Assembly (NCBI GenBank): GCA_021299835.1
Contig: JAJTER010000001.1
Coordinates: forward strand, 49,706-113,705
DNA from: Saprospiraceae bacterium
GTDB lineage: Bacteria > Bacteroidota > Bacteroidia > Chitinophagales > Saprospiraceae
Direction: 5' to 3'
Length of the DNA stretch: 64,000 nt
Part shown: positions 62,576 to 64,000 of the stretch, one piece after another
Position numbering within the stretch: the first letter of the stretch is position 1
Layout: each line of letters opens with the position of its first letter
The notes under the pieces: generated by a model
What the model was told of the DNA's origin: nothing
Databases searched by the model: none
Seen by the model: only the letters and a program-made list of their open reading frames with translations
Translations under genes and position numbers: made by a program

Positions 62576-62602
62576 TTAACCGATTTTTGGTAAAATGATT
62601 TG

Positions 62603-62645
62603 AAAGGCATTGTAGTTCTTAAAATGAGCTGCAATGCCTTTTTTC
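62603..62645 (+). terminator. Terminator after susD
   Basis: AAAGGCATTGTAG ... CTGCAATGCCTTT (13-bp stem with one G-U), then TTTTC. Confidence 0.8.
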
Positions 62646-62680
62646 TTTTTACACCTCAAAAAAGATTGTATTTTTGCATC

Positions 62681-64000
62681 ATGCAGAAGAATCCTTACTT
62701 TATCATTGATTTCGATAGTACTTTCACCCGCGTGGAAGCCTTAGATGTCCTGGCTGAAATTGTCCTGGCGCATTCCTCGAAAAAGGATGCCGTCGTTCAG
62801 GCTATTCACGAAATTACCAACCGGGGTATGAATGGCGAACTCGACTTCCGAGAATCCCTGACCCTTAGACTGGACCTCCTGAAGGCCAATAAAGATGATA
62901 TTCATCATCTGGCGGAAAGATTGAAAGCTCAAATCTCTCCTTCTTTTGAACGGAACCAAAAACATCTGTCAGCCCTTAAAGATACCGTTTATGTGGTGTC
63001 TAATGGTTTCAAGGAGTTTATTGTCCCCGTAATTGAAGCCTACGGCCTTTTACCCGACAACGTATATGCCAATACCTTCGTTTATGACGAGGAGGGGAAT
63101 ATTATTGGGTTCGATACAGAAAATCCGCTCTCGCGAAATGGGGGAAAATCACTGGTCATTAAAGATTTACACCTGAACGGTGACGTTTATGTCATCGGGG
63201 ATGGTGCCAATGATCTCGAAATATGGAAGGCTGGTTATGCTAATAAGTTTTATCTCTTCACTGAAAATGTTGAGCGCGAAAAGGTAAAGAAAGAGGCAGA
63301 CCATTTTGCCTCTACCGTCGATGAAATTTTGTACGAGTTGAATCTGGCCAGAAGCCTTTCTTATCCAAAAACAAGAATTAAGGTTCTTTTATTGGAGGGC
63401 GTTAACAAGGAAGCTGCCCTTGCTTTTGAAAAGGAGGCTTATCAGGTGGAAATTATTGACAGACCTTTGGACGATCAGGAATTGGCTGGAAAATTAAAAA
63501 CGGTGAATATCCTCGGTCTTACCTCCAGTCAAAAAATAACAAAGGATCTCTTGAAAAATACAAAAAGACTGATTAGTCTCGGTGTTTTTAGTTCCGATGC
63601 CTCAAAAATTGATATGGATGCTTGCTCCAGTCATGGCGTGGCCGTATTTAACGCTCCTTTCAGTCATGTGCGTTCTGTGGGCGAGTTTACCTTGGGTAAT
63701 ATGCTGGCCTTAAGCAGAGGGGGTGCAGGCAAAATGGGTCATGAGATTAGAGGAAAAAAGCTGGGTATCGTTGGTTACGGTAAAATAGGTTCGCAACTGG
63801 GTGTTTTAGCCGAAAACCTGGGCATGGAGGTCCTGTTTTTTGATATTGCCGACAAATCCCCCCTGGGAAATAGCAAAAAATGCAGCCAGCTGGATAGTCT
63901 GCTAATGCAGGTCGATTTTGTCTCCATTCATGTCAGTGAGCTGCCTGAAAATAAACATTTTTTTGGGGAATCCTTTTTCAACGCACTGAAACCATCGGCC
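62681..64000 (+). CDS. HAD phosphatase (SerB-like) fused to SerA-like D-2-hydroxyacid dehydrogenase; truncated by right edge
   Basis: Own translation from ATG 62681, 440 codons open to the edge: MQKNPYFIIDFDSTFTRVEALD...VVSNGF...VIGDGANDLEIW (HAD), then TRIKVLLLEGVNKEAAL...VFNAPFSHVRSVGEFTLGNMLALSRGG...IRGKKLGIVGYGKIGSQLGVLAENLGMEVLFFDI (SerA-like). Not in ORF track. Confidence 0.9.
   Translation, partial: MQKNPYFIIDFDSTFTRVEALDVLAEIVLAHSSKKDAVVQAIHEITNRGMNGELDFRESLTLRLDLLKANKDDIHHLAERLKAQISPSFERNQKHLSALKDTVYVVSNGFKEFIVPVIEAYGLLPDNVYANTFVYDEEGNIIGFDTENPLSRNGGKSLVIKDLHLNGDVYVIGDGANDLEIWKAGYANKFYLFTENVEREKVKKEADHFASTVDEILYELNLARSLSYPKTRIKVLLLEGVNKEAALAFEKEAYQVEIIDRPLDDQELAGKLKTVNILGLTSSQKITKDLLKNTKRLISLGVFSSDASKIDMDACSSHGVAVFNAPFSHVRSVGEFTLGNMLALSRGGAGKMGHEIRGKKLGIVGYGKIGSQLGVLAENLGMEVLFFDIADKSPLGNSKKCSQLDSLLMQVDFVSIHVSELPENKHFFGESFFNALKPSA

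Follow-up and report, generated by a model that had tools for sequence, protein, structure and literature searches.

The last gene of the window, by which we mean the whole 64,000-nucleotide stretch of DNA analysed here, encodes a SerB-like phosphatase joined to a SerA-like dehydrogenase, and raises the question of what the dehydrogenase half may do when residues for binding its usual substrate are missing from it. The original prediction held that a single reading frame joins the two domains, that the equivalents of Arg60, Asn108 and the loop with Trp139/Lys141 are lost from the SerA half and its GxGxxG motif is intact, and that this half may use another substrate, sense serine or NADH, or regulate the phosphatase. 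No publication on a SerB-SerA fusion or on a dead dehydrogenase half was found in the open-access literature searched, most subscription papers lying outside it. A fusion gene of Echinicola has reportedly been re-annotated from fitness data, which the papers available did not confirm.

Structure and location of the fusion gene

All the motifs on which the prediction was based were located in one frame, which opens with an ATG at position 62681 and continues to position 64000, the end of both the window and its contig (C109) (Table 1). The predicted protein is therefore cut at residue 440. Its C-terminus was sought in the rest of the window-genome assembly and not found, so that the remainder was read from six congeners (G001-G006) harboring the same gene with about 97-100% protein identity, in which the full-length product (locus L011/L039) has 616 residues. 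Contigs also break within this gene in several independent assemblies (window position 64000; L015, L017, L019 and L038).

The upstream neighbours are a susC/susD-like pair, set apart by a terminator-like hairpin, which suggests that the fusion gene may be transcribed separately from the susD-like gene. No sign of an operon was seen around it, and the genes downstream in one congener (L039) look unrelated. The sequence TATTTTTG is present at positions 62662-62680, a few bases 5' of the start codon; we take it to resemble the Bacteroidetes -7 promoter element, which would mean a very short leader.

Table 1. Coordinates of the fusion gene and its elements in the window.
Feature	Position	Strand	Remarks
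SerB - putative pseudo-SerA fusion gene	62681..64000	+	Open frame; first 440 of about 616 codons; runs beyond the contig end
SerB-like HAD-IB phosphatase half, residues 1-225	62681..63355	+	Matches human phosphoserine phosphatase (PDB); all classes conserve the motifs
SerA substrate-binding lobe remnant, N-terminal part, about residues 226-327	63356..63661	+	E. coli SerA alignment
SerA NAD-binding domain, first part	63662..64000	+	Retains GYGKIG and the equivalent of Asp181
Hairpin resembling an intrinsic terminator, located after the susD-like gene and before the fusion gene	62602..62642	+	
DFDST motif	62708-62722	+	Fusion frame
VSNG motif	62996-63007	+	Fusion frame
GDGANDLE motif	63197-63220	+	Fusion frame
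GLTSSQK motif	63515-63535	+	Fusion frame; Thr at the Arg60 position
FSHVR motif	63659-63673	+	Fusion frame; His at the Asn108 position
GGAGKMGH motif	63719-63742	+	Fusion frame
GYGKIG motif	63773-63790	+	Fusion frame; NAD motif

Both halves match their families with E-values far beyond chance. Values of about 1e-22 with phosphoserine phosphatases and about 1e-21 with the human enzyme (PDB) were obtained for the SerB half, and of about 1e-45 with E. coli SerA structures for the part of the SerA half contained in the window. The nearest solved relatives of residues 1-225 are a phosphoserine-phosphatase-like protein and human phosphoserine phosphatase, while residues 226-616 align across the full E. 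coli SerA, C-terminal ACT domain included (E about 1e-74).

Residues lost and retained in the SerA half

Alignment with E. coli K-12 SerA (numbering with Met as 1) bore out the predicted losses: in the window itself Arg60 is replaced by Thr and Asn108 by His, and the loop 127-141, with Trp139 and Lys141, is deleted, the alignment showing no equivalent arginine. The C-termini of the six congeners, whose motifs are also found in L019/L044, extend these losses to the catalytic set, with Arg240 changed to Asn, Glu269 to Lys and His292 to Gly, along with Gln301 to Glu. GxGxxG and Asp181 are kept in the window genus, as are His344, Asn346 and Asn364 of the SerA-type serine site in the ACT domain, which is recognized by Pfam PF22629 (39.5 bits). 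The fusion scores 379.5 bits with the NCBIfam SerA model NF008759, under its cut-off of 404. With its catalytic residues lost but its NAD motif and the serine-site residues of ACT preserved, the dehydrogenase half is probably a pseudoenzyme rather than a dehydrogenase with a new substrate. A structure model predicted from 8 sequences was too poor to use, with a mean pLDDT of 51 and values below 50 for the phosphatase half.

The window genome does contain a second, canonical SerA (L008:1668-2651), a protein of 327 residues without ACT domain in which the equivalents of Arg60, Arg240, Glu269 and His292 are intact; it belongs to a different SerA subfamily from that of the fusion (only about 25% identity). 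SerC is encoded elsewhere in the genome (C45:74482-75534). No other SerB-like protein was found there, the second match to the SerB model reaching 26 bits within an 824-residue frame. Given a separate SerA, SerC and no further SerB-like protein, the fusion is likely to be the SerB of a complete serine pathway.

Intact, dead and shortened fusions in Bacteroidota

Relatives were sought over the order, class and phylum, and about 70 full-length SerB-SerA fusions were found in Bacteroidota, most of which keep every SerA residue checked and are probably bifunctional. L105 and about 45 others have the same domain order as here (SerB, then SerA with ACT) and about 41-56% identity across the whole protein; unlike the window genus, they keep Arg60, Asn108, Trp139/Lys141, Arg240, Glu269 and His292, and this conservation, together with the score of L105 above the NF008759 cut-off (677.9 vs 404 bits), makes it probable that fusions of this type catalyze both reactions.

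Dead SerA halves, with varying degrees of loss, were identified in the window genus, G007, G020, G298, five genomes of family f32 and G315. In G007 and G298, Arg60 and Arg240 are lost and Glu269 and His292 kept, which looks like an early stage of the process. Arg240 is absent from all 11 dead full-length fusions, and the glycines of the dinucleotide motif and Asp181, invariant in live forms, are kept in all 11; some of these glycines may be conserved for the fold alone. Family f61 and G142, G200 and G287 have short forms of 420-500 residues that lack the NAD-binding domain and keep SerB, both pieces of the substrate lobe and ACT; these correspond to L162, L159-L173, L091, L180 and L169. Across the fusion classes the catalytic motifs of the phosphatase and the equivalents of its substrate Glu, Met, Phe and Arg are conserved, and none of the 28 dead and 47 live fusions examined lacks His344, Asn346 or Asn364.

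In a tree of the fusions built without the NAD-domain columns, the window genus is nested among intact fusions and there are at least five changes between live and dead states, four of them forced by well-supported branches, which points to at least five origins of dead SerA halves in Bacteroidota. A single origin was rejected, the best tree that groups all dead forms having a p-AU of 4e-57. The short form of G287 (L169) is placed apart from the others, so that excision of the NAD domain may have occurred twice, the position of some long branches (G287 and G315) being uncertain.

Adjacent but separate serB and serA genes are present in G073, G098, G329, G483, G509 and G555. They are likely to be either a precursor of the fusion or the product of its split, and suggest a route by which the fusion could arise. 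The genes of such pairs (L174-L179) often overlap. Two stand-alone SerA proteins, L157 (G591) and L158 (G309), are nearest to the fusion type and have intact catalytic residues and no SerB half; possibly they have lost it, which would be the reverse of having a dead SerA.

Selection on the fusion and alternative explanations

In the window genus, dN/dS was 0.00-0.03 for SerB, 0.00-0.08 for the first lobe, 0.00-0.17 for the NAD domain and 0.00-0.05 for ACT, indicating that all of these segments are under purifying selection, which is most stringent for SerB and ACT and least so for the NAD domain. The ratio of NAD-domain to SerB divergence was 2.0-4.8 in dead groups (the window-genus value being that of one pair) vs 0.3-1.2 in live groups. 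This relaxation, along with the loss of catalytic residues and the different stages of decay seen among lineages, could correspond to a functionless remnant that is tolerated on a working phosphatase. Such an explanation is unlikely, however, considering the low dN/dS of all segments, the invariance of the serine-site residues in 28 out of 28 dead cases and the short forms, which dropped the NAD domain yet kept ACT.

A separate SerA without ACT was found in 25 of the 28 dead-half genomes vs 21 of the 43 live-half genomes tested (Fisher p 7e-4, by simple counting). With phylogenetically independent pairs the association was not significant, there being too few informative pairs, and these always showed the expected direction or no difference; that the fused dehydrogenase was lost because it had become redundant is therefore plausible but not proven. 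Among the three exceptions, G200 has an intact 415-residue SerA instead, and no clear separate SerA was found in G631 and G142 (L226, L227), where the SerA half is dead or excised. The lack of ACT in the separate enzyme and its frequent coexistence with a dead half are also in line with a role of the latter in trans, whereby it would bind the short SerA and provide serine feedback, or hold the pathway enzymes together. We give this little credence, since the two SerA proteins belong to different subfamilies and the short forms have lost the NAD domain, one of the main surfaces for dimerization of SerA.

With respect to the phosphatase half, it contains the DxDST, SxG-type, GGK and GDGxxD motifs of the HAD-IB group and the substrate Glu, Phe and Arg residues, with Asn in VSNG where human phosphoserine phosphatase has Gly, and exceeds the cut-off of the subfamily model TIGR01488 (62.5 bits vs 45). 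Its score with the SerB model TIGR00338 (75 bits) is under the curated cut-off of 144, as is that of a live fusion (61 bits). This could indicate that it acts on another phosphomonoester and that the fusion serves another pathway, but the chances of this seem slim when the substrate residues match those of the human enzyme, the protein is the sole SerB-like one in a genome that also encodes SerA and SerC, and the phosphatase is joined to SerA and ACT; phosphoserine is its more probable substrate. Finally, a dehydrogenase acting on a new substrate, as contemplated in the original prediction, or using other catalytic residues was rejected as very improbable because the catalytic residues are missing, the whole set having disappeared from the window genus, where the congener C-termini offer no aligned substitute, even if the NAD motif and fold-defining residues are kept and the NAD domain is still somewhat constrained.

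A proposed model for serine control of the phosphatase

Because the SerA catalytic residues are lost and the serine-sensing domain is kept, we consider it reasonably probable that the fusion is a phosphoserine phosphatase in which a dead SerA serves as an allosteric module, through which serine, and perhaps NAD(H) as well, would regulate it. That part of the original prediction, sensing of serine or NADH or regulation of the phosphatase, gains support from the ACT residues, the NAD motif, purifying selection and the excision of the NAD domain only, while the part concerning another substrate is very unlikely to hold. The sequences themselves show the fusion, the loss of catalytic residues, the conserved ACT residues, purifying selection, the nesting among intact fusions, the repeated independent losses and the excision; from there we infer serine binding, the direction and mechanism of regulation and any role of NAD(H). 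The ancestor would have been a SerB-SerA enzyme active in both reactions; in the window genus, where a separate intact ACT-less SerA is present, the fused one would have lost catalysis, phosphate contacts and substrate loop, but not its NAD motif or the serine site of ACT. In a homodimer or tetramer, L-serine would bind where two ACT domains meet, and the signal would travel through the dead SerA body to the phosphatase half, resulting in end-product control of the last step of serine synthesis. Binding of NAD(H) to the Rossmann domain that was retained may contribute to structure or act as a second signal. More tentatively, the protein could be a two-input sensor, in which phosphatase activity is set jointly by L-serine bound to ACT and NAD(H) bound to the Rossmann site, and bifunctional enzymes would repeatedly have become single enzymes with a module derived from their former partner, the NAD domain being finally excised in some lineages.

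Adjacent serB and serA genes, intact fusions, dead SerA halves and excised NAD domains form a natural series, along which a catalytic domain seems to have turned into a regulator that keeps its ligand sensor, at least five times. With this series, the conversion of an enzyme into a pseudoenzyme regulator can be tested directly on orthologous proteins. Automatic annotation, for its part, can label fusions with a dead half as phosphoglycerate dehydrogenases, an activity that they have probably lost.

Compared with known systems, the SerA half aligns over the full length of E. coli SerA with about 36% identity and has in common with it the ACT serine-site residues and the NAD motif, but differs in the loss of catalytic residues, phosphate contacts and substrate loop and in being joined to a phosphatase. 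The phosphoserine phosphatases of human and Methanocaldococcus jannaschii share with the fusion the HAD-IB fold motifs and substrate residues, and lack any SerA or ACT part. SerB2 of M. tuberculosis is a phosphoserine phosphatase with two ACT domains, through which it is regulated by L-serine (PMC10564941). It thus offers a precedent for the coupling of phosphatase and ACT, with serine feedback, proposed here, although its ACT domains are N-terminal, while that of the fusion is C-terminal and accompanied by a dead dehydrogenase body.
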